Source: an uncultured Opitutia bacterium (GTDB lineage: Bacteria; Verrucomicrobiota; Verrucomicrobiia; Opitutales; CAJWYM01). Taken from it: a stretch of DNA of 42,218 bases. Within the stretch, counting starts at the first letter, position 1. Each line of letters opens with the position of its first letter. Location: assembly GCA_913049555.1 (NCBI GenBank), contig CAJWYM010000027.1, positions 1-42,218 on the forward strand, given 5' to 3'. Under the pieces are notes generated by a model. The model was not told where the DNA came from. It ran no database searches and saw only the letters and a list, made by a program, of their open reading frames with translations. Of this stretch, positions 5,692 to 20,039 are shown piece by piece. The translations under genes were made by a program, and so were the position numbers.

Positions 5692-6854
5692 AATGATTGG
5701 ATACTTCTTGGACCATCAGATGCATAGGTATTGAAAAAAGTAGTTTGACGATTTTCGCCAAATTTATCCTTATAAGCTTCAGCCACTTTTTCAGCTTGGC
5801 TTGACTCAAAGGAATCTACCGTCAGTGCCATAACGGCTCCACCAAATCCACCTCCACTTAGTCTAGCTCCAAGGACTCCCTCTTGTTGAATAAGCGTGTC
5901 TACAAGAAAGTCCAGTTCAGGAATACTATTTTCAAAATCATGCTGAGAACTTCTGTGAGAACCCAAAAGCAACTTACCTACTCGATTTAAATCCGATTCA
6001 TTCAGGGCCTCTTTAACGGCATGCACCCTACGATGCTCGGTTATAACATGCCGAGTTCGCTTAAACATATTTAGAGAAATATTGTTTTCATGTTCCTGCA
6101 AGACCTCTAAATTGAGATCACAAATAGATTCTAAATCAGGATTTAATTTCTTAAAATAATCAAAAGCTTCTGAACATTCCTGATGCCTTTGTCCATACAA
6201 GGAATCTACCAACGAATGCTTGTGATCGGTATTGAAGATCCAAAGGGACAATTTTTTACCTGTAGCTAGTACAGAAAAATCCTCCTCCTTGCAATTGATG
6301 TAAATGATCGAGCCCTCTTTTCCAAAAGAGGAGGTTCCTTGATCTAAAATGCCACTTGGAATGCCAACATATTCATTCTCGGATTGTCGACCAATACGAG
6401 CCATGTCTGCCTTACTTATATCAAAACCATTGAGTTGCATAATAGCATGCAAAGTTGAAAGCTCTATAGCAGCACTACTAGAAAGGCCTGCTCCCACAGG
6501 CAAGTTTGAAGCGACTGCAATATTAAAACCTGTAGGAAGATTAAAATCACGTTTTAACAGAGAACAAATTACCCCGATAGGGTAATTGGTCCAAGAATTG
6601 TTTCCTTCCAAAGGCTTCTCTAAACAGGACAAACGACGCATAACCACTTCATCTGAAATCGTACTCACCATATGAATTTCATCATCCTCCCTCTTGGATG
6701 CAGCAATAAATACGCCTTTGTCAATAGCTACTCCCATTACGTCCCCACCATTGTAGTCTGTATGATTACCAATAAATTCAACCCGACCTGGAGCAAAAGA
6801 GGTGGTTTCAGCAGATAAACCAAAGGTGTTTTCAAATAATTCCTGAACTGTCAT
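5688..6854 (-). CDS. galK: Galactokinase
   Basis: GHMP-family kinase phosphorylating galactose at C1 with ATP (Leloir pathway). With the start used here the protein has 388 residues. The galactose-binding motif [13 protein letters not shown] is near residues 23-35, the ATP-binding loop [12 protein letters not shown] at 118-129, the catalytic Asp is in GILDQ, and motif 3 LSGGGFGG lies near the C-terminus. I prefer the ATG at 6854 over the in-frame TTG at 6872: the ATG sits 2 nt after the hemH stop, has AGAAG a short way upstream and gives the family-typical N-terminus MTVQELF; the TTG has no ribosome binding site and overlaps hemH. No galT, galE or galactose transporter is nearby, so the operon context does not point to a galactose cluster. 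Confidence 0.94.
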
Positions 6855-8264: not shown

Positions 8265-10613
8265 ATGCGCTTTTACCATCGAATGCTCATTCTCTTTGTG
8301 GGTACCCTTTCTTTCAACATCTACTCAGTGGATGTTCTCCATACTTATACTGGAGCGGATGGAGGTAATTTTTTGACTGATTCCAATTGGGATACTGGCA
8401 CCTACCCCAATGCTAATAACCATACCGTAACTTTCAACTCAGCGAATAGCAATGATCCTGTTCTATCAGGTTCGGCAACCATTAAATCTTTGGTGAATCC
8501 CTCCGACTCTCTGAGCGAGTGGCGAACGATTACGGGAGGGGGGACTCTCAATTTATCTGCAGATTCTGGCAACACAACCCTCACAAATTTAGACAATCAG
8601 TTTCTTACTTTGTATACGGATTTAAATGTTCTCAGTGACTTAGATGTCAATTTAACTGCGGGCGATATAAAGTTAGTCCGAGCATTGACTGGAACAAGCA
8701 CCAAAACCATAAACATTACCGGTCCCACGAATCTTTCAAAAGCTTTTTACTTAGAACCTAGTTACAATGCTGACAACAATACCTTTGCTGGAACTATTAA
8801 ACTCAACAATCGCACTCGATTAGTTCTAGGAAGTGCATCTCCATCTGGATCTAACCAAACCGTTCAATCAACGGGCTTGACTATCAAAGCAGCAACCACC
8901 AACTCCTACCAAAACATCCTTTTTATGGATAGGAATCAGACCGATTATGACTTTCAACTAGACATTATTGACAATAACACTGCTAAATTAATTTTAGAAA
9001 TTAGCACTTCAGCAGGAGCCAATGCTTACACTTATTCTGGATCCATGTATTCTAGAAACAGTGCAGATTCCTCTGTGGCGGCAGTCAATCGAAGTTTACA
9101 ATTTTCAACCAATGGAAAAAATTTAACCATTTCTGGCGATAATACTAATCTTACGTTAGCTTCTGCCAGCTATTCCATGCAATTTCAAAACGGAAATGGA
9201 ACTACAAGCAAGGTTTATATAGACAATGAGGATGCTTTAGGCGAAAACAATGGCAATAAACTCACCATAAACGATGAAACGGGTGCGATACAAATGCACA
9301 TTCTAAACAATCGAACTCTCTCGGGGAATTTACTTATAAAAGGAAAAAACGATGGAGTAAGCAACTTAATCGGTGGAAGCGACAGTGGATCCGCCTCCGG
9401 TTCGACTACATTCAGTGGGATCGTGCAACTCAATTCAAACTCAAGCAATTCTAACACTCGAAACTTGGAGTTGTGGTCTAACAACAATGAATCTGTTACT
9501 TTTTCAGGGAGGATTTCAGACAAAATAGCATCCAATTACACCGACATTTCTAAAACAGGAACTGGAACCGTCATTTTGTCAGCAGACAATACTTATGCAG
9601 GTAGCACTACAGTGAGCGCAGGGACTCTTCAAATTGCTCATCAAGACGGATTAGGTGAAAGCTCTTCAAATACCTCGAATACAACTACAACCATTAATAG
9701 TGGGGCAACTTTAGCTTTCAATAACTCGAGTGCTATGACTGTCTACGAAAACTTAAACCTTTCAGGAACTGGAGATTCAGGGCTTGGAGCTATTGATATA
9801 ATAGATGGTTCTCACTCCATCCAAGGAACGATTGCTTTATCAGCCGCATCCACAATAGATGTCTCCTCATCCGATGACACCCTAACATTAAACGGGGTAG
9901 TAAGTGGTTCGAATGCCCTAACTAAATCTGGAACAGGAGCTTTAAAATTAGGTGCATCGAACACCTACTCAGGAAATACGACTGTTTCTGCTGGAAGTTT
10001 ATATTTGAATAACAGTACCGGCAGTGCCGTTGGTTCAGGCAACCTATCTGTTTCCTCTGGAGCTTATGTTTTTGGAACTGGATCTATCTCAGGATCTCTA
10101 ACCAACCTTTCTGGAACTATTGATGCCGGCGATGGAGCCAATCAAATTGGTAAAATTACAATGTCTGGCTCCAATACTGATTTTTCAAATGGAACTTGGA
10201 TTTGGAATGTAAGTGATGTTGAAGGTTCTACTCCTGGAACTCATTGGGATGCCATTGAGTTTTCTAGCACCTACAATCTGAACAATTTATCTGGGTCTCC
10301 ATTGACTCTCAAAATTAGAAATAAAACCAATGGAAATTATCAATCTCTTGAAGGTTTAAGCTCATTTGGTTCCTCCTCAAATTATGGAAACGCAGGAGCT
10401 GGGGATTTAAAAATCATGGACAACATTTCCAATTTCAATGACGCTTACTTTACTGTTGATTCAGACATTCTTAATATTAACTGGGAACTCAAGCAAGTTG
10501 GAAGTGCACTTTGGCTGTCTTACAATGCTGTACCAGAGCCTAGCACTTGGATCACAATTGGATTTGTATGTATTATTTTGAGTTGGAAATTTGTTAAAAG
10601 CAAATTTCTATAA
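8265..10613 (+). CDS. PEP-CTERM surface protein with autotransporter-type beta-strand repeats
   Basis: A 782-residue exported protein. The N-terminus is a signal peptide (hydrophobic core LILFVGTLSFNIYS). The body is Ser/Thr/Asn/Gly rich and Cys-free, as in beta-helical stalks, and includes two clear autotransporter-associated repeats: SKTGTGTVILSADNTYAGST (about 428-447) and LTKSGTGALKLGASNTYSG (about 552-570), each followed by TTVSAG. The C-terminus is a textbook PEP-CTERM sorting signal: VPEPS at 756-760, one membrane helix and a Lys-rich tail. By family knowledge, exosortase would process it and it would end up in the envelope or extracellular matrix; no exosortase gene is in the window. 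There is no beta-barrel, so it is not a true autotransporter. It has no clear Shine-Dalgarno. The monocistronic setting beside the secretion locus is notable. Confidence 0.88.
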   Translation: MRFYHRMLILFVGTLSFNIYSVDVLHTYTGADGGNFLTDSNWDTGTYPNANNHTVTFNSANSNDPVLSGSATIKSLVNPSDSLSEWRTITGGGTLNLSADSGNTTLTNLDNQFLTLYTDLNVLSDLDVNLTAGDIKLVRALTGTSTKTINITGPTNLSKAFYLEPSYNADNNTFAGTIKLNNRTRLVLGSASPSGSNQTVQSTGLTIKAATTNSYQNILFMDRNQTDYDFQLDIIDNNTAKLILEISTSAGANAYTYSGSMYSRNSADSSVAAVNRSLQFSTNGKNLTISGDNTNLTLASASYSMQFQNGNGTTSKVYIDNEDALGENNGNKLTINDETGAIQMHILNNRTLSGNLLIKGKNDGVSNLIGGSDSGSASGSTTFSGIVQLNSNSSNSNTRNLELWSNNNESVTFSGRISDKIASNYTDISKTGTGTVILSADNTYAGSTTVSAGTLQIAHQDGLGESSSNTSNTTTTINSGATLAFNNSSAMTVYENLNLSGTGDSGLGAIDIIDGSHSIQGTIALSAASTIDVSSSDDTLTLNGVVSGSNALTKSGTGALKLGASNTYSGNTTVSAGSLYLNNSTGSAVGSGNLSVSSGAYVFGTGSISGSLTNLSGTIDAGDGANQIGKITMSGSNTDFSNGTWIWNVSDVEGSTPGTHWDAIEFSSTYNLNNLSGSPLTLKIRNKTNGNYQSLEGLSSFGSSSNYGNAGAGDLKIMDNISNFNDAYFTVDSDILNINWELKQVGSALWLSYNAVPEPSTWITIGFVCIILSWKFVKSKFL

Positions 10614-10785: not shown

Positions 10786-11259
10786 ATGATAGTATTGACC
10801 CCAGCAGAAATTTCTAAAACAGGAATCAGCCTCAGCCTTGGATCGCTTGCAGTAAACATCCCAAAGGGAGAACTAGATGCTTTAGGAAGTATGGGCGAGT
10901 GGGTCGCCTCTGATGGAGAATTGATTGTTCAAGAAGGCACTTATCAAAAACATCTTTACACTATCTTGGACGGTGAAGTGGACGTATTTAAAAAAAATGC
11001 AGACACCAAACAGATTCTGATTCGTCTCAGTTCGGGCACTCTTTTCGGTGAGATTTCTTTGCTTTCAGGGGGACAAGCTTCCGCAAACGTTGAAGCTGCT
11101 GGAAAAGCCATTCTCTGGAGAATAAATCACAAACACCTTATGGAATTTGTAGAAGGGTACAGTAGTGGGGGTCAAATTTGTATCAATCTCGCTAAAGTTC
11201 TCAGTGATAGATTGGTTCAAGCAAATGAAAAAATTGTTGATTTAGCTTCCAAAACCTAG
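10786..11259 (+). CDS. Stand-alone cyclic-nucleotide-binding-fold protein
   Basis: 157 residues forming one CRP-type cNMP-binding beta-roll (roughly 30-125: GELIVQEG, YTILDGEVDVF, GTLFGEISLLSGGQASANVEA) plus a C-terminal helix. There is no DNA-binding helix-turn-helix, so it is not a CRP/FNR regulator. The phosphate-binding cassette keeps Gly88-Glu89, but where CRP has GQERSA this protein has GQASA: the phosphate-contacting Arg is absent. It may therefore bind no cyclic nucleotide, or a different ligand. It is the first gene before the tolC-ABC-HlyD set. cNMP domains are known as parts of some peptide-exporting ABC systems (NHLM-type and cyanobacterial HlyB-like), which suggests a regulatory subunit of this exporter. 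Confidence 0.75.
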   Translation: MIVLTPAEISKTGISLSLGSLAVNIPKGELDALGSMGEWVASDGELIVQEGTYQKHLYTILDGEVDVFKKNADTKQILIRLSSGTLFGEISLLSGGQASANVEAAGKAILWRINHKHLMEFVEGYSSGGQICINLAKVLSDRLVQANEKIVDLASKT

Positions 11260-11486: not shown

Positions 11487-12800
11487 ATGTATACCTCCAA
11501 CCTGCTGTGCTGGTTCTGTGTCGTGTTCTATTGGTTCTCACCTTTGGTTCTAGCGGATGGAAGTATAAGAACCAACAATTTAATTTTGTGGGATGCCATT
11601 CTAAAAGCCATAAAAACCAACCCTGACATTGTTGCCTCACAGCAAAATTTAATTACAAGAAAACAGCAATACCGACAAACTCAAGCCACTTATCTTCCTA
11701 GTATAAGAGCTGGTTTTTCTGCAAACTACAACTACAGCACCAACCTAAAAAAGGAACCTTATTCTGGATCCATATCAGCCACTCAGAAACTACTCAATCT
11801 CTCTCAAATTCAAACGATCCGAAAAAGTAAAAAAAGCTACGAGTCCTCTAATTTCTCTCTTGAGTCCACCAAACAAAATATAATTTTAACTACCACGAAT
11901 ACCTACATTGATTTGATTTCTCAATTTAAAGTAGTTGAGCTTTCACAAAAAAACTACCAACTCACGAAAAAACACGTGGATGCTACGCAACAAAGATATG
12001 CAGCAGGCGAATTGACCAAAACCGATGTGAATCAAGCCAAAAGTAGACTTGCAAATGCGAAAGCTACTCTTGTCAGAGCCATAAAAGTTGCAGACGTAGT
12101 CCGTAAAAGGTACAAACAAATTGTGGGCAGCATCCCACCCAAAATTCTAAAAATTCCTTCTGTAAATTCAGGAGACATTGAAAATCAGTTCTCTAAAAAT
12201 AAGCACACTTTATTTTCTCACCCGACATTACTTATAGCAAAATCCTCCCTCGAATCTGCAAAGATAGATCAAGTAGAAGCCCGCTCCGATTTTTATCCAA
12301 CCATAGATTTATCTGCCAGCGGAAATGTCACCTTGGAAAGTGAAACTCTTCAATTTGAAGATTACAGGGATAGCTACTTAGTTGGTGTAAGCGTTACGAT
12401 CCCTATCTTTTCAGGAGGAGGGCGATTCTATAAATTGAAAGAAAAGCTTTCTGAAAGAAAACTTGAGGAAGCCGAGTATGAAAGCACGAAGCGCCAAATT
12501 AAATTTGCATTAGACTCTGCTTTGTTAGAGTTGAATATAGCCAGAGAATTGGAAGAGGTTTTCATTGAAGGAGTCCAAGCATCGAAAACGGCTTTAGAGG
12601 GGGTCCAAGAGGAATTTGAGGCAGGTGCCAGAATTGCACTCGATGTTTTAGATGCTCAAAACGAATTGTTCAGCGCGGACATTTCGCTGGTAAAAGCTCG
12701 ATTTGATATTATCAAAGCTCAATTCCAATTACTTTCAAGTTCCGGAACCTTAACTTTATCTCAACTTAGAGTAGCAATGTCCGATCCAAAGAAGAGATGA
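11487..12800 (+). CDS. TolC-family outer-membrane channel of a type I secretion system
   Basis: 437 residues with an N-terminal signal peptide (hydrophobic LLCWFCVVFYWFSPLVLA). Two half-repeats of the outer membrane efflux family follow: long amphipathic coiled-coil helices (AILKAIKTNPDIVASQQN and, in the second half, HPTLLIAKSSLESAKI). Channel-tip motifs YAAGELTKTDVNQAKSRL and EFEAGARIALDVLDAQNEL match those of TolC proteins. By family knowledge it forms a trimeric channel docked to HlyD-type adaptors. Its stop overlaps the next start by 4 nt (ATGA at 12797-12800), so it is co-translated with the ABC gene. This is the first gene of the tight block tolC-ABC1-hemerythrin-ABC2-hlyD. Confidence 0.9.
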   Translation: MYTSNLLCWFCVVFYWFSPLVLADGSIRTNNLILWDAILKAIKTNPDIVASQQNLITRKQQYRQTQATYLPSIRAGFSANYNYSTNLKKEPYSGSISATQKLLNLSQIQTIRKSKKSYESSNFSLESTKQNIILTTTNTYIDLISQFKVVELSQKNYQLTKKHVDATQQRYAAGELTKTDVNQAKSRLANAKATLVRAIKVADVVRKRYKQIVGSIPPKILKIPSVNSGDIENQFSKNKHTLFSHPTLLIAKSSLESAKIDQVEARSDFYPTIDLSASGNVTLESETLQFEDYRDSYLVGVSVTIPIFSGGGRFYKLKEKLSERKLEEAEYESTKRQIKFALDSALLELNIARELEEVFIEGVQASKTALEGVQEEFEAGARIALDVLDAQNELFSADISLVKARFDIIKAQFQLLSSSGTLTLSQLRVAMSDPKKR

Positions 12801-14488
12801 ATAAAGGAGGTTTACAAGATTTATTAAGACTTCCCAATTTCAAATCGATGGGATTGGATTTAATGCTCTCTACAACTTGCATCAACTTATTATCTTTAGC
12901 TCTACCCTTAACGATGATGCAAGTGTTTGATCGTATTATTGGCAATAAATCAACGGGAACTTTAGCATGGCTGATATTAGGTTGCTTGACTGCAATGTTT
13001 TTTGAAAATGCACTCAAATTTGTAAGGACATCCATCAGCGGATGGCTCGGCGCAAGATTTGAATATAAATTAAGCAACGACGCAGCAAAAAAAGTACTTT
13101 CCTCTCGTTTGGATGATTTTGAAAAAGATCCTGTTGGAAAACATATGGAACGTTTCAATGCGATCAATGATCTTCGCAATTTTTACAGTGGACAAGTGTT
13201 TCAAGTCCTACTAGATCTTCCCTTCGCATCCCTGTTTCTTTTTGGAATTTATTTATTAGGAAATTCACTCGTTTTGTTTCCTATTGGGATGGCAATTCTT
13301 TATTTTCTGGTGTTCTTTTATTTGCAAAGCAAATACAAACAATCAAGAAACAGTCAACAGGATGCCGTTGAGGGAAGGATGAGTTTTCTAATTGAATCTT
13401 TGCGCAGAATTCATATGTCAAAGACTTTATCCATGGAGGAACAGATCTTAAGAAAATATGAACATTCGCAAAAAAAGGAGGCCTCTGCCAATCTAACCAT
13501 GCTGTTTTGGACCATGACTCCGAGTCAGATTGGTGGATTGTTTACACAGTGTATGATGTTTGGAACAATTTTTCTAGGAGCCTCCTCTATTATGGATGGT
13601 TCCATGACGATCGGTTCGCTTACGGCTTGTATGATGATGAGTGCTCGATTTATGACTCCAATTCAAAGTGTTTCAGGATTTTTCCTTCAATATACCAGAT
13701 CCAAGTTGGCAAAAGAAAAACTAAATCTGATTCATGAAATGCGAGACGATGTCCCAGAGGGTTTACCCATATTTCCTGAAATCAATAAAGGTTCCATCGA
13801 GCTCCAAGACATCTCTTTTAGATATGGAACAGACAAACCTTGGGTGGTAAAAAATTTAAACTTAAAAATTAGGGATGGGGAGCTTACAGTGATTACATCC
13901 AACAGAGGCGAGGGAGCAACTACTTTGCTGAACTTAGTTATGGGAACTTTAAAACCCGAAAAGGGCGAGGCGCTTATTGGCAATCACAGATTGAGCCAAT
14001 GGGATCATTCAGACTTCCGAGGACATGTCGAATTTCTCTCTTATCAACCACACATATTTAGCGGAACTATTCTTGAAAACATCACCATGTTTCATCCAGA
14101 AAGAGAGAGTGCCGCCTTAGAAGCTTCAAGTATTATTGGTCTTGTTGGTGGGGTTTCTCAGATGCCCCTCGGCTTTGCAACTCCTTTAACTCCTCAGTCT
14201 GCACTGATGCTCCCTGCCTCCATTTTGCAAAAAATTGCGTTATCTCGTGCACTTACAGTTCGACCCAAAATTCTCTTATTAGACCGAACAAGTTCTATGA
14301 TGGATACAACCAGTGAAGAGAGATTTTTTTGGTTGCTGGATCAATTAAAAGGTCAAAGCACGATTCTATTCGCGACAGACAGTTCGAGAGCCATGGAAAT
14401 GGCAGATAGAATCTACGAACTCAAAGAAGGTCATTTAAGCAATCTATTCCGAATTAGAACACAGATCAAAAAAAGGAATGTAAAGTGA
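12797..14488 (+). CDS. Type I secretion ABC transporter subunit with degenerate ATPase domain (ABC1)
   Basis: 563 residues: an N-terminal exporter-type membrane domain (about 20-300, several hydrophobic helices) fused to an ABC nucleotide-binding domain (about 333-550). The fold is recognisable (IELQDISFRYG; Q-loop SYQPHIFSGTILENI), but the catalytic residues are gone. The P-loop reads SNRGEGAT, with Ala374 where the essential Lys belongs; Walker B is ILLLDR, with Arg497 in place of the catalytic Glu; the LSGGQ signature is LPASI (472-476); and the H-loop His is Asp528. It should not hydrolyse ATP by the usual mechanism. It probably heterodimerises with the second ABC protein at 15822. Linked by 4-nt overlaps on both sides. 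Confidence 0.85.
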   Translation: MNKGGLQDLLRLPNFKSMGLDLMLSTTCINLLSLALPLTMMQVFDRIIGNKSTGTLAWLILGCLTAMFFENALKFVRTSISGWLGARFEYKLSNDAAKKVLSSRLDDFEKDPVGKHMERFNAINDLRNFYSGQVFQVLLDLPFASLFLFGIYLLGNSLVLFPIGMAILYFLVFFYLQSKYKQSRNSQQDAVEGRMSFLIESLRRIHMSKTLSMEEQILRKYEHSQKKEASANLTMLFWTMTPSQIGGLFTQCMMFGTIFLGASSIMDGSMTIGSLTACMMMSARFMTPIQSVSGFFLQYTRSKLAKEKLNLIHEMRDDVPEGLPIFPEINKGSIELQDISFRYGTDKPWVVKNLNLKIRDGELTVITSNRGEGATTLLNLVMGTLKPEKGEALIGNHRLSQWDHSDFRGHVEFLSYQPHIFSGTILENITMFHPERESAALEASSIIGLVGGVSQMPLGFATPLTPQSALMLPASILQKIALSRALTVRPKILLLDRTSSMMDTTSEERFFWLLDQLKGQSTILFATDSSRAMEMADRIYELKEGHLSNLFRIRTQIKKRNVK

Positions 14489-15825
14489 GCAAATCATCTC
14501 CTCTAGTAAGTTGGGGTGTCCAAACAGCTGAAACTGAATCTGATCTATCGCTTTCAGTTGGAAAAACTGGGGTCACAATGTTGGATGAGGGGATGGGACG
14601 CTTGATGGATTACGCCTTAATAATCAATGGGTATTTGGAAGATCCAGTTGCAGGAACGATAAAGCTTGATTCTACAGATAAATTTAAAGAATTGCTCAAC
14701 GAGATGATTGAATTTTCTAAATCATATTTTAGATTTGAAGAAAACTTAGTCAAAAAAAACTTTCTACCTTGGTTGGCATTTCATAAAGAAGAACATCAAA
14801 AAATTTTAAACCTTTTAAACGAAAATTCTAAAAACGTTGCTGCTGGTCAGCTTTATGTCACACCTGATTTCCAGATACAATTATTAGAATCTCTAATCAA
14901 CCATGTGAACAAAGCAGATTGTCCCTCTTTCAATCAGAAATACCGATCTAAAGCACTTTTAAATCTAAAATCTTCCGAGGAACTTCTTGTATTTGTTCCC
15001 TCTACAGGGATATCGCCTGTGGATCAAAATATTGAGACATTCTGTAAATCCCTAAGCCAAGTAAGTTCTTATTTTCAGTATTATGAGAATAAATCACCAA
15101 ATGAGAAAGAATGGTTCCAAATACAAACCTTTTTTAATAACTTTTACCACCACATACGCGCCCATTTTGACTTCCAAGAACAATTCATAAAAAAGATCGG
15201 TCTATCAGGATATTTGGCACACAAAAAAGATCATTGGGTATTTTTAAATTCAATTTCTAACTTTTGTAGAAAGATTGCTGCAAGACAAGCTGTGTTTAGC
15301 TCTAATATTCATCTAGGAACCCTTAACTGGTGGCTTACCCATTTCAAGGAAGAAGATTGTAAATTATTCGATTCAAAAAAAGTTTTTCGGTGCGCCTTGG
15401 AAGAATCGAATGTTTGGAATGATTTCGAGTGGATGTTTGCTGATTTCGAGGACAATTCAATTCAATTAAAATTAAAATTGGTTATTCAGGAATTCTTAAA
15501 AGCAATCCCACTGATTCTTAACAAAGAAGGAACTGAGAAAATTTCTAATCCATTCAAGTCTGCTCTGGAATCCTTAAAAAAAATGTTTAAGGAAGAGGAA
15601 AGCTCTGATCAAAGATTGAAATGTAGCATTCCTCATAAGATCGAACACAGAAATATTGAAAATCAAATTCAAGAAGTAATCGAGAGTATTGAAACAAACC
15701 GCGTGGGTCTCAATCATTTACTGGTAGAGGACACTCTCAGTTCCCTAGTATTTCATTACAATAGATCCGATTTTCGCGACTACCAACTTTTTAAAAATCT
15801 TTCTTTTGAGGAAATTCAGCCATGA
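14485..15825 (+). CDS. Protein with two degenerate hemerythrin-like repeats
   Basis: 446 residues, no signal peptide. Two repeats follow the bacteriohemerythrin ligand spacing exactly alike. Repeat 1: Tyr81 (first His lost), Glu85, His100-x3-His104, His140, Asp145. Repeat 2: His227, Gln231 (Glu lost), His246-x3-His250, His286, Asp291. In each, the first helix residue normally His is absent (DEGMGRL, DQNIETF). Neither repeat keeps a full diiron ligand set. A helical C-terminal third (about 310-446) has no repeat I can assign. The GTG start at 14485 overlaps the ABC1 stop by 4 nt, with AAGGA upstream, and its own stop overlaps ABC2 by 4 nt. It is thus embedded in the exporter operon and is probably an accessory or sensor subunit of it; its biochemical role is unknown. 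Confidence 0.75.
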   Translation: MSKSSPLVSWGVQTAETESDLSLSVGKTGVTMLDEGMGRLMDYALIINGYLEDPVAGTIKLDSTDKFKELLNEMIEFSKSYFRFEENLVKKNFLPWLAFHKEEHQKILNLLNENSKNVAAGQLYVTPDFQIQLLESLINHVNKADCPSFNQKYRSKALLNLKSSEELLVFVPSTGISPVDQNIETFCKSLSQVSSYFQYYENKSPNEKEWFQIQTFFNNFYHHIRAHFDFQEQFIKKIGLSGYLAHKKDHWVFLNSISNFCRKIAARQAVFSSNIHLGTLNWWLTHFKEEDCKLFDSKKVFRCALEESNVWNDFEWMFADFEDNSIQLKLKLVIQEFLKAIPLILNKEGTEKISNPFKSALESLKKMFKEEESSDQRLKCSIPHKIEHRNIENQIQEVIESIETNRVGLNHLLVEDTLSSLVFHYNRSDFRDYQLFKNLSFEEIQP

Positions 15826-17942
15826 GCATTGAAGAGAAGGATAAAGATACCTCATTTTTTCAACCTAGCAACTCTTTGTCAAAGGCTATTCGGCCCTTGT
15901 TAACCTCACTGGGTTGGCGCGGAGAGGATCAATCTCTCATTGAGGCAATGCCTAACAATCCAGATGATATCACTCTGGATGGATTGTTGGATACAATGGC
16001 GAATTTAGGCTATCATTACAATTGCGTTCATCGCTCTATCCATCGAATCAGTCAACGAGAACTTCCTTGTTTATTCATTCCCAAAGATGGAAAGGTTACC
16101 GTTATTGTCAAAAGTGATCATAAACACATATTTGGTTATGATACTGAAAATGAAAATTACAAAGTTTTTGAAGACAAAAGAAAGTCCGGTCAATGCTTCC
16201 TATTCTCTCGCTTGTCAGAAAGTGACCGCGCGTTGGATAAAGACACATCCCTATGGACTTTAAAATTAGCCAGACGATTTACTAGTTTATTTGGTATCTG
16301 TCTAATGATTAGCTTCTTGTTGAGTTTATTAGCATTTGTTACTCCGTTGTTTATTATGACAGTTTACAACCGTGTATTTGCATCTGGTGCGATTGACGCC
16401 ATGAAATACCTTGGATTCGGCATTCTCATTTATCTCATTGCTGATCTTGGTTTAAATATGATGAGGTCTTCTATCCTCTCATTTATAAGTTCGAGAATAG
16501 GCTACCTCCAAGGGAACCAACTCATGAGAAGAATCCTCTATTTTCCATCCAAGGAGACAGAGGGGATTCCCTTAAATTTACAACTTAACAAGTTGAAGGA
16601 TTTTGAAGCCATCAAAGATTTTTTTGGAAGTCCTACTATGGCTACTTTAATTGAACTTCCCTTCTTAGCTTTATTAATTGGGGGCATGTACGCTTTGGCT
16701 GGAACAGCTGCTTTAATTCCAATATTAGCAATTGCAATTTATCTAGTATTTGTTGGTTGTATTTACAAAACCGTCAACAACTACGTTATGGATGGAGGGA
16801 TCGCCATGATTAGTAAGCAAGACTTTTTACTCGAGATCTTAAGCAATCTTAGGGCAATCAAATACACCGCAACAAAGCTTCACTGGGAAGAAAAGTATGC
16901 ATCTCTCAGTGCAGAATCAGCCATCTCTAATTATAAAAGTGGACAAGTGAATGCGATCGTTTCCGCAGTTTCCGGCAGCATTGTATCTGTGGCTGGAATT
17001 TTAACCATCGGATTTGCAGTTACAGGTGTCATTTCAGGAGAAATGTCTTCAGGGGCTCTCATGGCTTGTATGCTATTAGTTTGGAGAATATTAGGACCCC
17101 TTCGCAACGGGTTCGGAACCATTCTTCACGCCCTTCAAATCTATCGAGGTGTTGGACAACTCGATAAATTTATGGAGCTAGAAATTGAATCGCCTCAAGA
17201 TTCTTACACATCCTCCAAGAAGAAGCTGAACGGCAACATTTACTTTCATAATGTAACTCATCGCTACAACAGAAATGCTCATCCAGCTCTTTATGAAGTA
17301 AATTTTGAAGTAAAACCAAAAGAATCCCTTTTAATAATGGGGCATGACGGTGCTGGTAAATCAACAATTCTTAAGATGATTATGGGTCTCTATACTTCTC
17401 AAAGTGGAGTAGTAGCTGTGGACAATACAAGTATTCGACAAACGAACCCTATCGAGTTAAGAAAAGCAATTACCTATGTGCAGGCTGAACCCTCATTTGT
17501 TCACGGTAGCATTTACGAGAATTTAAGATTAGTAAATTTAAATGCGAGTGAATTTCAGCTTGAGGAAGCTTTAAAACGAGCTGGAGTGTGGGCAGACATT
17601 ATTGAATTAGAAAATCAAGGAAAACATATTTTAGACCCGCTCCATTTGGATTCCTATCCAGCACATTTATTAAAAAGAATCAATACGGCTCGATTATTCC
17701 TCCAAGACTGTTCAATTATGTTGATAGATGAGCCAGACAGATCCTTACAAGACAGTCATCATACTCAAATCATAAAAGGACTCTCCACCTTCAGAGAAAG
17801 CGCGACATTAGTAGTTGTTTCTAACAATCCTCGTTATTTCGATTTAGCGGATCATATACTTTGGATGGATCAAGGTAGAATTAGGGAATTTGGAAGAAAA
17901 GAGGAAGTAGAAAAAGTTTGCTTAGAGTACCTATCTAATTAA
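15822..17942 (+). CDS. Type I secretion ABC transporter with C39-like N-terminal domain (ABC2)
   Basis: 706 residues. Residues about 20-130 resemble the C39-like domain of HlyB-type exporters (LPCLFIPKDGKVTVIV, HIFGYDTENENYKVF) but without the catalytic Cys context of a peptidase, so substrate binding rather than cleavage is expected. A membrane domain (about 150-440) and an ABC domain (470-700) follow. Walker A GHDGAGKST (507-515) and Walker B IMLIDEP (632-638) are intact. The signature LSGGQ is replaced by SYPAH (611-615), and the H-loop His appears as Asn in VVSNNP (about 666-670). Together with ABC1 this would give a heterodimer with at most one weakly canonical ATP site. It starts by a 4-nt overlap with the hemerythrin-like gene and is followed by hlyD after 8 nt. 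Confidence 0.87.
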   Translation: MSIEEKDKDTSFFQPSNSLSKAIRPLLTSLGWRGEDQSLIEAMPNNPDDITLDGLLDTMANLGYHYNCVHRSIHRISQRELPCLFIPKDGKVTVIVKSDHKHIFGYDTENENYKVFEDKRKSGQCFLFSRLSESDRALDKDTSLWTLKLARRFTSLFGICLMISFLLSLLAFVTPLFIMTVYNRVFASGAIDAMKYLGFGILIYLIADLGLNMMRSSILSFISSRIGYLQGNQLMRRILYFPSKETEGIPLNLQLNKLKDFEAIKDFFGSPTMATLIELPFLALLIGGMYALAGTAALIPILAIAIYLVFVGCIYKTVNNYVMDGGIAMISKQDFLLEILSNLRAIKYTATKLHWEEKYASLSAESAISNYKSGQVNAIVSAVSGSIVSVAGILTIGFAVTGVISGEMSSGALMACMLLVWRILGPLRNGFGTILHALQIYRGVGQLDKFMELEIESPQDSYTSSKKKLNGNIYFHNVTHRYNRNAHPALYEVNFEVKPKESLLIMGHDGAGKSTILKMIMGLYTSQSGVVAVDNTSIRQTNPIELRKAITYVQAEPSFVHGSIYENLRLVNLNASEFQLEEALKRAGVWADIIELENQGKHILDPLHLDSYPAHLLKRINTARLFLQDCSIMLIDEPDRSLQDSHHTQIIKGLSTFRESATLVVVSNNPRYFDLADHILWMDQGRIREFGRKEEVEKVCLEYLSN

Positions 17943-17950
17943 GGACATTT

Positions 17951-19261
17951 ATGAGTAGTGAAAACGACATATCCCACCTAACAAAGTCTGGCCTTCTTGA
18001 GGAAACTGGAACCCCCATGTTTCTCAAAATTTTCACTTGGTTTGCAACGCTCCTTTTCTTGGCTTTCGTTGCTTGGACAATTATCACAGGATTGGATGAA
18101 GTAGCTTCTGCTAAAGGTGAGATTATACCCAGTGGGCATGTTCAAAAAATCCAGCATTTGTCTGGAGGTATGATAGAGGGCATTCAAGTTGAAGAGAGAG
18201 ATTATGTTAATCAAGGAGATATTTTGTTAAAGCTAGATCCATTAACTTCTGAGACTCAGCTTGCACAAAGTGAAGGGCAAATGTTAACGCTAAAACTCAA
18301 AAAAGAGCTTTTAGAAGCTGTTATTGAGGATAGAAAACCTAATTTTGCAGAAATAGACAATATAAACCAAATTCTAATTAAAGAGCATCTGCAACAATAC
18401 AAACAACAATCGATGTCGGATCAGTCATCAAGATTGACATTGGAAAGTCAAATTGAACAAGCAAAATCCGATCTTGCTGAAGTTAATATCAATGAAGCCA
18501 AGTTGATGCGTAAACAAGAATTTCTTGAAGAGGAGATGAAAATAAGAAGAGGTCTTGTAGAAAAAGGTTTGAATTCAAAAATGCTGTTTTTAGCTCTCAA
18601 AAGACAACAGAGCGACTTAACGGGTTCCATAGAACTAATTCCTCCAACAAGATCCAAAATCAAAAAACGAATTGAGGAATTAAACAGTCGGTTGCAAGAA
18701 CAAGAATCTACGAAGATGAAAGATCGATTGAAAGAAATTAGCGGGCTAAAGGATCAAATCTTTAATCTTAACAAAGACCTTTTCAAGCACAGAAAAAGCG
18801 TCGAACAAATCACTATTACTGCTCCATTCAGTGGATATGTTCATAATTTAAAAAAACATGCAGTAGGCGAAATTATCTCAGGGGGTGAAGTCATCATGGA
18901 ACTTGTTCCGCTAGGGAAGGAATTTCTAGCTGAAATTAAAATCTCATCCAAAGACATTGGACACGTTGAGACAAATCAATCAGTTCTTCTAAAGTTCACA
19001 ACCTATGATTTTCTTAGATATGGCGGAATGAAAGGGCAACTTAAGGAAATATCTCCCGCAGCCTTTTCAGACAGCGGCGACCCTTATTACAAAGGAATTG
19101 TCAGTTTCGGTAAAAATTATTTTGGAAACGATCCCAAAAAAAATCCTATATTTCCCGGAATGACCCTAACAGCAGAAATTAATACTGGAAAAAAAACAGT
19201 CATAGAATACCTTTTAAAGCCTATTTTTGTTTCCGCCAATCAAGCAATGAGGGAAAGATAA
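17951..19261 (+). CDS. HlyD-family membrane fusion protein
   Basis: 436 residues linking the inner-membrane ABC exporter to the TolC channel. A short cytoplasmic N-terminus, one membrane helix (about 24-47), then the lipoyl-like half-motif HVQKIQHLSGGMIEGIQVEE (63-82) with GDILLKLD. Long Gln/Glu/Lys-rich coiled-coil hairpins (about 100-280) are followed by the returning lipoyl half APFSGYVHNLKKHAVGEIIS and a beta-barrel region ending in a conserved PGMTLTAEINTGKKTVIEYL tail. Length and order are those of type I secretion adaptors. AAGGA (17941-17945) overlapping the ABC2 stop is a good ribosome binding site, so it is the last gene of the co-translated block. Confidence 0.92.
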   Translation: MSSENDISHLTKSGLLEETGTPMFLKIFTWFATLLFLAFVAWTIITGLDEVASAKGEIIPSGHVQKIQHLSGGMIEGIQVEERDYVNQGDILLKLDPLTSETQLAQSEGQMLTLKLKKELLEAVIEDRKPNFAEIDNINQILIKEHLQQYKQQSMSDQSSRLTLESQIEQAKSDLAEVNINEAKLMRKQEFLEEEMKIRRGLVEKGLNSKMLFLALKRQQSDLTGSIELIPPTRSKIKKRIEELNSRLQEQESTKMKDRLKEISGLKDQIFNLNKDLFKHRKSVEQITITAPFSGYVHNLKKHAVGEIISGGEVIMELVPLGKEFLAEIKISSKDIGHVETNQSVLLKFTTYDFLRYGGMKGQLKEISPAAFSDSGDPYYKGIVSFGKNYFGNDPKKNPIFPGMTLTAEINTGKKTVIEYLLKPIFVSANQAMRER

Positions 19262-19412: not shown

Positions 19413-19985
19413 ATGGCAGATGTGAACCAACCCGATAATATTGAACCAAACCCAGCAGACACTGGACCGCAAGCAGGAGGTGAAACGGTTCCTCCAGTAG
19501 GAGATCCCGGCCCAGCGGGTGGTGACACAGGACCAGCAAGTGCAGACATGGCTCCTCCTCCGGGTGACATGGCTCCTCCTCCAGGGGATATGGCTCCTCC
19601 AACAGATATGGCTCCACCTCCGGGTGACATGGCTCCACCAACAGGGGATATGGCTCCTCCAACAGACATGGCTCCACCTCCGGGTGATATGGGATCTGGA
19701 GCGGATGCTCAGGATCCGATGGCTGGCGGAACGGCTCCAGATACTGGTGGAATGCAAGAAACTGCAGCGCCCCCTCAAGGAGATGCAGGAGGTCCTGAAA
19801 GTGCAATGCCACCGGCAGGAGACTCTACACAAGAAGGTCAACCCCCAATGGACGACGGCGGTGCTAACATGCCAGCGGATTCAGCAGGTGCATTTGGAAC
19901 AGGTGCTGGAGAAGCACCAATAACAAATGACGCAGGTCCAACAGACACAGGTGCGGGAGTAGATGCTGATTCACTCTCGATTTAG
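19413..19985 (+). CDS. Acidic Pro/Gly/Asp/Met repeat protein, putative type I secretion substrate
   Basis: 190 residues starting at an ATG with a good AAGGA site 6 nt upstream. The sequence is built from Pro, Gly, Asp, Ala, Thr and Met, and contains no Lys, Arg, His, Cys, Trp or Tyr, so it is strongly acidic and surely disordered. Residues 45-91 are seven DMAPP(P/T)(G) units. There is no Sec signal or membrane segment. The last residues, GVDADSLSI, have the acidic-plus-hydrophobic look of C-terminal type I secretion signals. It lies 151 nt after hlyD and before a strong terminator, so it most likely is the exported cargo of the preceding machinery. No RTX nonapeptide is present and no enzyme domain is seen. 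The opposite-strand frames over it are artefacts of its repeat codons. Confidence 0.7.
   Translation: MADVNQPDNIEPNPADTGPQAGGETVPPVGDPGPAGGDTGPASADMAPPPGDMAPPPGDMAPPTDMAPPPGDMAPPTGDMAPPTDMAPPPGDMGSGADAQDPMAGGTAPDTGGMQETAAPPQGDAGGPESAMPPAGDSTQEGQPPMDDGGANMPADSAGAFGTGAGEAPITNDAGPTDTGAGVDADSLSI
19545..19685 (+). repeat. In-frame 60-nt tandem repeat (21+21+18 nt units)
   Basis: Seven coding subunits of the form GA(C/T)ATGGCTCC(T/A)CC... in the order 21, 21, 18, 21, 21, 18, 21 nt form a higher-order period of 60 nt (20 residues). 19561-19620 and 19621-19680 differ at only a few positions. In-frame and codon-preserving; likely to vary in copy number between strains. Confidence 0.9.
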
Positions 19986-20008: not shown

Positions 20009-20039
20009 AAGGCCGAAGATTAATTCTTCGGCCTTTTTT
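20009..20039 (+). terminator. Strong rho-independent terminator of the secretion locus
   Basis: A perfect 11-bp GC-rich stem (AAGGCCGAAGA at 20009-20019 with TCTTCGGCCTT at 20025-20035), a 5-nt loop, and a T-run to 20039. It lies 23 nt after the stop of the repeat protein and closes the region. Confidence 0.95.

Follow-up and report, generated by a model that had tools for sequence, protein, structure and literature searches.

In the hemerythrin diiron site (sipunculan numbering), His73, His77, and His101 bind Fe1, His25 and His54 bind Fe2, and Glu58 and Asp106 bridge, with O2 binding at Fe2. The closest described counterparts of the protein considered here are the bacteriohemerythrins (TIGR02481/NF033749; 4XPX and DcrH-Hr 2AVK), with which it has in common the four-helix bundle, the H-x3-E, H-x3-H, H-x4-D spacing, and the sequence score. 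It departs from them in possessing three repeats per chain, in lacking a complete diiron site, and in being encoded within a secretion operon; its own relatives differ further in that a Gln replaces one His of their nonterminal repeats. Another parallel is offered by the plant iron sensors BRUTUS and BRUTUS-LIKE, which carry up to three tandem hemerythrin domains, some of them without ligands (PMC12022348), making sensing by such ligand-poor arrays plausible. BRUTUS proteins are E3 ubiquitin ligases, and a Pfam scan of our protein found no such domain; hence, the parallel is one of analogy and not of membership.

Type I secretion normally uses a single homodimeric ABC protein, and descriptions of it normally name ATP and substrate as its only drivers. 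The nearest known exporters are of the LssB/HlyB type (TIGR03375; HlyB 8DCK/7SGR), which share the ABC, TolC, and HlyD components with the present system; the latter differs in having two distinct ABC halves (ABC1 and ABC2), one dead ATP site, and an added hemerythrin gene. TIGR03375 is the top NCBIfam model for both ABC1 (351 bits) and ABC2 (391.6 bits), each under its 693-bit curated cutoff, and HlyB is the best solved-structure match of ABC1. In the yeast pump Pdr5, the degenerate site is without the Walker A Lys, the Walker B Glu, and the H-loop His together, and the signature of the partner is changed (PMC7756269). ABC1 has lost the same three residues and the signature is degenerate in its partner, ABC2, but Pdr5 is a single-chain drug pump without a hemerythrin partner. 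The open-access literature on hemerythrin combined with type I secretion, HlyD, or ABC transporter operons yielded no description of such a system, and hemerythrin goes unmentioned in the accessible part of a long review on type I secretion. We regard the arrangement as a variant of type I secretion that is real and conserved and that has apparently not been described before.

The window, a stretch of 42,218 nucleotides from an uncultured Opitutia bacterium, contains a genuine type I secretion operon (Table 1): ABC1 and ABC2 match ABC_tran and ABC_membrane, TolC and HlyD score over their cutoffs, and together they make up the type I secretion gene set. The TolC, ABC1, hemerythrin, and ABC2 genes each overlap by 4 bp, the hemerythrin reading frame starting with GTG and sharing 4 bp with the gene on either side, and HlyD follows ABC2 after 8 bp. 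The gene for a cyclic-nucleotide-binding protein is possibly the first of the operon; a promoter-like sequence precedes it. The 190-aa repetitive protein at the other end, for which Pfam and NCBIfam profile searches found no family match, is by its position a candidate secreted substrate.

Table 1. Coordinates of features in the window and, in the last row, in three sister-clade loci
Feature	Position	Strand	Basis or remark
Cyclic-nucleotide-binding domain protein	10786..11259	+	PF00027 E 2.9e-17; upstream of TolC
TolC-family outer-membrane channel	11487..12800	+	TIGR01844 265 bits, cutoff 225
ABC1, exporter half without N-terminal peptidase-like domain	12797..14488	+	No Walker A Lys or H-loop His; Arg for the Walker B Glu
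Three-repeat hemerythrin-like protein, 446 aa	14485..15825	+	TIGR02481, AlphaFold2 model, structure match
Repeat 1 ligand span, residues 37-145 (M37 Y81 E85 H100 H104 H140 D145)	14593..14919	+	Alignment
Repeat 2 ligand span, residues 183-291 (I183 H227 Q231 H246 H250 H286 D291)	15031..15357	+	Alignment
Repeat 3 ligand span, residues 330-429 (L330 M367 E371 H384 H388 H424 D429)	15472..15771	+	Alignment, model
ABC2, exporter half	15822..17942	+	N-terminal domain without evident C39 catalytic Cys
HlyD-type periplasmic adaptor	17951..19261	+	TIGR01843 337 bits, cutoff 209
190-aa acidic Pro/Gly/Asp/Met-rich repetitive protein	19413..19985	+	21-bp tandem repeats
Intrinsic-terminator-like hairpin after last gene	20009..20035	+	Sequence; 11-bp stem and T-run
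ABC2 with GRNGAGRST	L086 1792-3930; L087 1899-4040; L088 2224-4365		Sister clade

The 446-aa protein belongs to the hemerythrin family, with a match beyond chance. TIGR02481 aligns to it in three stretches (E value, 4.8e-24; 84.8 bits against a cutoff of 51.75) and PF01814, the Pfam Hemerythrin model, scores 26.5 bits for the whole protein (cutoff, 25.3); NF033749, again for the whole protein, falls slightly below its cutoff (80.2 versus 84), and no single window repeat reaches the TIGR02481 cutoff alone. Residues 66 to 145 align without gaps to bacteriohemerythrin 4XPX, with Y81, E85, H100, H104, H140, and D145 falling on ligand columns, and in a phmmer comparison against solved chains only bacteriohemerythrin and DcrH-Hr gave meaningful scores. 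A hemerythrin search of the window genome (95% complete) found no second hemerythrin domain. The AlphaFold2 model (m5c4c8ed6feb3), built from an alignment of three rows only, predicts three successive four-helix bundles (residues 31 to 148, 177 to 294, and 324 to 442) with a pLDDT of 78.7 and a pTM of 0.71. Against solved hemerythrins it gives Z scores of 13 to 15, at about 2.2 to 2.5 Å over 111 to 134 residues; the match to 4XPY (Z 15.2, rmsd 2.2 over 130 residues) compares a predicted structure, chiefly its repeat 2. Nonhemerythrin helical bundles score lower, with Z about 11 at most, and Foldseek matches to GPCR-BRIL fusions, vinculin, and cytochrome c' were set aside as generic helical-bundle similarity. 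The model of a four-repeat orthologue is of lower confidence (pLDDT 72).

These results bear directly on an earlier, sequence-only reading of the gene, which had recognized two hemerythrin-like repeats and proposed profile searches and structure prediction as checks. Both repeats lie where it placed them, with Y81 to D145 and H227 to D291 offset by exactly 146 residues, and the helix-1 His is absent from each, its place in the alignment being taken by M37 and I183. The profile searches bear out the family assignment with both TIGR02481 and PF01814 over cutoff, and the two outcomes named beforehand as evidence against it did not occur, the predicted fold being that of a hemerythrin and the His and Asp positions being conserved across the family alignment. 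Its count, however, fell one short: there are three repeats in total, the overlooked third being backed by the third TIGR02481 stretch, by a pairwise alignment with the Lentisphaeria orthologue described below, and by the predicted structure. This is the least certain of the three, with a dip in model confidence at residues 375 to 379 and a small deletion in the helix 2 region. The suggestion that ligands of two repeats might converge was not borne out, since the model, judged from helix order, gives each repeat a separate bundle with its own ligand set; on this ground we rejected a shared site built from two repeats.

In the order of sipunculan positions 25, 54, 58, 73, 77, 101, and 106, the window repeats read MYEHHHD, IHQHHHD, and LMEHHHD, so that, as the same reading had held, no single repeat has a complete diiron site. 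The losses are one-sided: no repeat has the helix-1 His, two lack the first helix-2 His, and all of the losses concern either the second-iron side or the bridging Glu. In a count made on an alignment of which the window protein itself is part, the first-iron positions (equivalents of 73, 77, 101, and 106) are kept in 12 of 12 cells, as against 1 of 6 for the second-iron positions 25 and 54 (Fisher P = 0.0007). Likewise, positions 77, 101, and 106 are kept 9/9, versus 24/51 for other family-conserved positions in the window protein by a hand tally of alignment columns (P = 0.003). Such one-sided loss speaks for a single-metal pocket having been retained and against simple decay. Given the loss of the helix-1 His from every repeat and of the first helix-2 His from two, we predict no more than one metal ion per repeat, in a pocket of three His and one Asp, joined by a Glu in repeats 1 and 3, and the protein is predicted not to bind O2 as a classical hemerythrin does. 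Metal binding by this member is deduced from sequence, at about 20% identity to its relatives.

Among 177 genomes of the window's own order, we found no orthologue but only weak matches; those in the order and phylum were for the most part ordinary bacteriohemerythrins or else longer chains carrying a single hemerythrin domain, and were rejected as orthologues. Two different queries recovered a single further orthologue among 388 genomes of the window's phylum, in a Lentisphaeria metagenome-assembled genome (MAG) (G345, WFSE01000029). Genome-wide scanning with an alignment of ABC1 next led to a Magnetococcales MAG, in which a 588-aa, four-repeat hemerythrin protein is encoded between ABC1 and ABC2. 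A multihemerythrin cluster is present in 8 of 48 Magnetococcales genomes, and no further cluster was found among 398 genomes drawn across the phylum of Magnetococcales; searches of plasmid and viral collections found no relatives. So patchy a distribution is suggestive of horizontal transfer. All 10 clusters found, window included, in a sampling that covered the window's phylum and that of Magnetococcales, have the gene order ABC1, hemerythrin, ABC2, with HlyD following ABC2 where the contig extends that far; the exception is L054, where HlyD is divergent and upstream. The sequence-only reading had considered a hemerythrin-like component of a secretion operon unexpected; the operon is indeed one of type I secretion, but the association is no one-off, being conserved across a clade of secretion systems.

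The nine other proteins in the family alignment have four repeats (six proteins) or three (three proteins), and they obey a simple rule: the last repeat reads HHEHHHD, a complete site, in 9 of 9, and the nonterminal repeats read HHEQHHD in 24 of 24. The Gln at the first HxxxH position, uniform in these nonterminal repeats, is rarer elsewhere; we rejected it as unique to the family, as 2 of the 28 further hemerythrin domains in the retrieved loci also have it. The window protein reverses this rule, with His at the Gln place in all three repeats and the Fe2 ligands lost. Judged by its sequence, then, the window copy stands out as a ligand-depleted member of a clade whose members normally have intact or near-intact sites.

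The exporter halves show a corresponding peculiarity. In the window, ABC1 has ITSNRGEGATT for its Walker A motif and LLLDR for its Walker B motif, and ABC2 retains the Walker A Lys and Walker B Glu, with a degenerate signature and an Asn in place of the H-loop His. In all nine hemerythrin clusters with a full ABC1, the Walker A Lys is missing and the catalytic Glu is replaced by Lys or Arg, the H-loop His likewise not being in place; the first two residues are absent from the truncated L052 ABC1 as well. ABC2 of this group keeps Walker A and B throughout, although 7 of 8 have lost the H-loop His. In the homologous clusters that lack hemerythrin, ABC1 has both the Lys and the Glu (19/19), and a hemerythrin HMM run over 20 related or comparison regions gave no match. 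The loss of the ABC1 motifs with retention of Walker A and B in ABC2 constitutes a degenerate site and would leave at most one working ATPase site per dimer. That the two halves form a heterodimer is the likely reading of their gene pairing and is supported by fused ABC1-ABC2 chains of about 1,300 to 1,390 aa in other Magnetococcales (L100, L101, L102, and L103), mostly beside HlyD genes. Two different halves, one dead and the other with a degenerate signature, are unusual for type I secretion. In a sister clade without hemerythrin, the asymmetry is reversed: ABC1 is intact and the ABC2 Walker A Lys is an Arg (GRNGAGRST; Table 1). The hemerythrin-linked ABC1s form one clade with support of 100/100; the association thus counts once, as one evolutionary event maintained in two phyla, and not as nine independent ones, and the link between hemerythrin and the dead ABC1 may be coincidental, as counts over a single event cannot decide. 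Within this clade, the long branches of the window and L023 are joined, a grouping that is possibly false.

The conserved arrangement beside a dead exporter half suggests a metal- or oxygen-linked part of the exporter. We propose that the protein is a dedicated multihemerythrin subunit, probably cytosolic, belonging to a variant form of type I secretion system, docking on the exporter and adjusting it to iron, oxygen, or redox state, a reading that we consider about as apt to be right as wrong. No signal peptide or membrane segment is evident by eye, which points to the cytosol; exporter binding, the type of metal, and regulation by iron, oxygen, or redox we infer. The exporter would be a heterodimer of ABC1, with its dead nucleotide site, and ABC2, with intact Walker A and B; the hemerythrin subunit, encoded between the two halves in one translationally coupled operon and inherited with both, would dock on it and tune its activity, probably as a metal- or O2-responsive regulator. 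Sensing in most relatives would proceed through the complete diiron site of the last repeat, and the window repeats would hold at most a single metal ion each, without classical O2 binding. If this is true, a conserved hemerythrin subunit couples type I secretion with iron, oxygen, or redox and stands as a rare sensor-like component of an ABC exporter; many relatives of the organisms concerned, the magnetotactic bacteria, live at oxygen gradients. The complete last repeats, the Gln variant, and the window half-site also form a natural series, ready for asking how a diiron protein could turn mononuclear. A bolder version, possible but doubtful, is a gated form of secretion in which the multihemerythrin controls the exporter, the second ATPase site was surrendered on its acquisition, and the window sensor was rebuilt into a mononuclear array of three His and one Asp.

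The window hemerythrin shares 17 to 20% identity with the Magnetococcales orthologues and its ABC1 36 to 40%; the corresponding values for Lentisphaeria are 25 to 28% and 32 to 36%. Being more divergent than its ABC1 predicts, the window protein has evolved faster, which is consistent with a changed or relaxed function or constraint. This fast divergence, the linkage to a dead ABC1, and the retention of first-iron ligands with the second-iron side lost would also fit a structural adaptor, a metal-stabilized scaffold that supports ABC1 or places the substrate without sensing, the window version holding a structural metal or none. We consider this unlikely, as the complete last-repeat site in all nine relatives and the uniform Gln variant elsewhere exceed the needs of a scaffold.

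Less probable still is that the protein is a passenger, a coexpressed oxygen or iron buffer physically unlinked to the exporter. Magnetococcales genomes are rich in hemerythrins, and in one cluster, L050, a normal-looking single-domain bacteriohemerythrin gene (6159-6749) ends just upstream of ABC1, giving two hemerythrin genes in that cluster; both points are in keeping with a passenger. Against it stand the invariant position between the exporter halves (10/10 clusters, two phyla) and the parallel divergence of the three proteins: pairwise hemerythrin distances correlate with those of ABC1 at 0.94 (Mantel P = 0.0002) and with those of ABC2 at 0.98.

Although cargo genes often adjoin type I secretion genes, export of the hemerythrin-repeat protein by its own neighboring system is highly improbable, since its gene sits between the exporter genes and overlaps both, and other candidates are adjacent, namely, the 190-aa window protein, a giant repeat protein of L023, and low-complexity proteins of L048 to L053. 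The product of the gene after HlyD in Magnetococcales (divergent in L053) is acidic and of low complexity and bears an ELDxxTVLL-like motif in its N-terminal part, and in L023 the giant repeat protein follows the exporter genes; by position alone, these are candidate cargo. The acidic proteins (L048 1-1746, L049 14104-14999, L050 13854-14928, L052 6340-7147, and L053 146-4021) share a short N-terminal motif resembling ELDxxTVLLxxExxDL, and one has a long PEPEPE tract. Elsewhere in the window, positions 8265 to 10613 encode an autotransporter-type beta-strand repeat protein with a PEP-CTERM-like C terminus.
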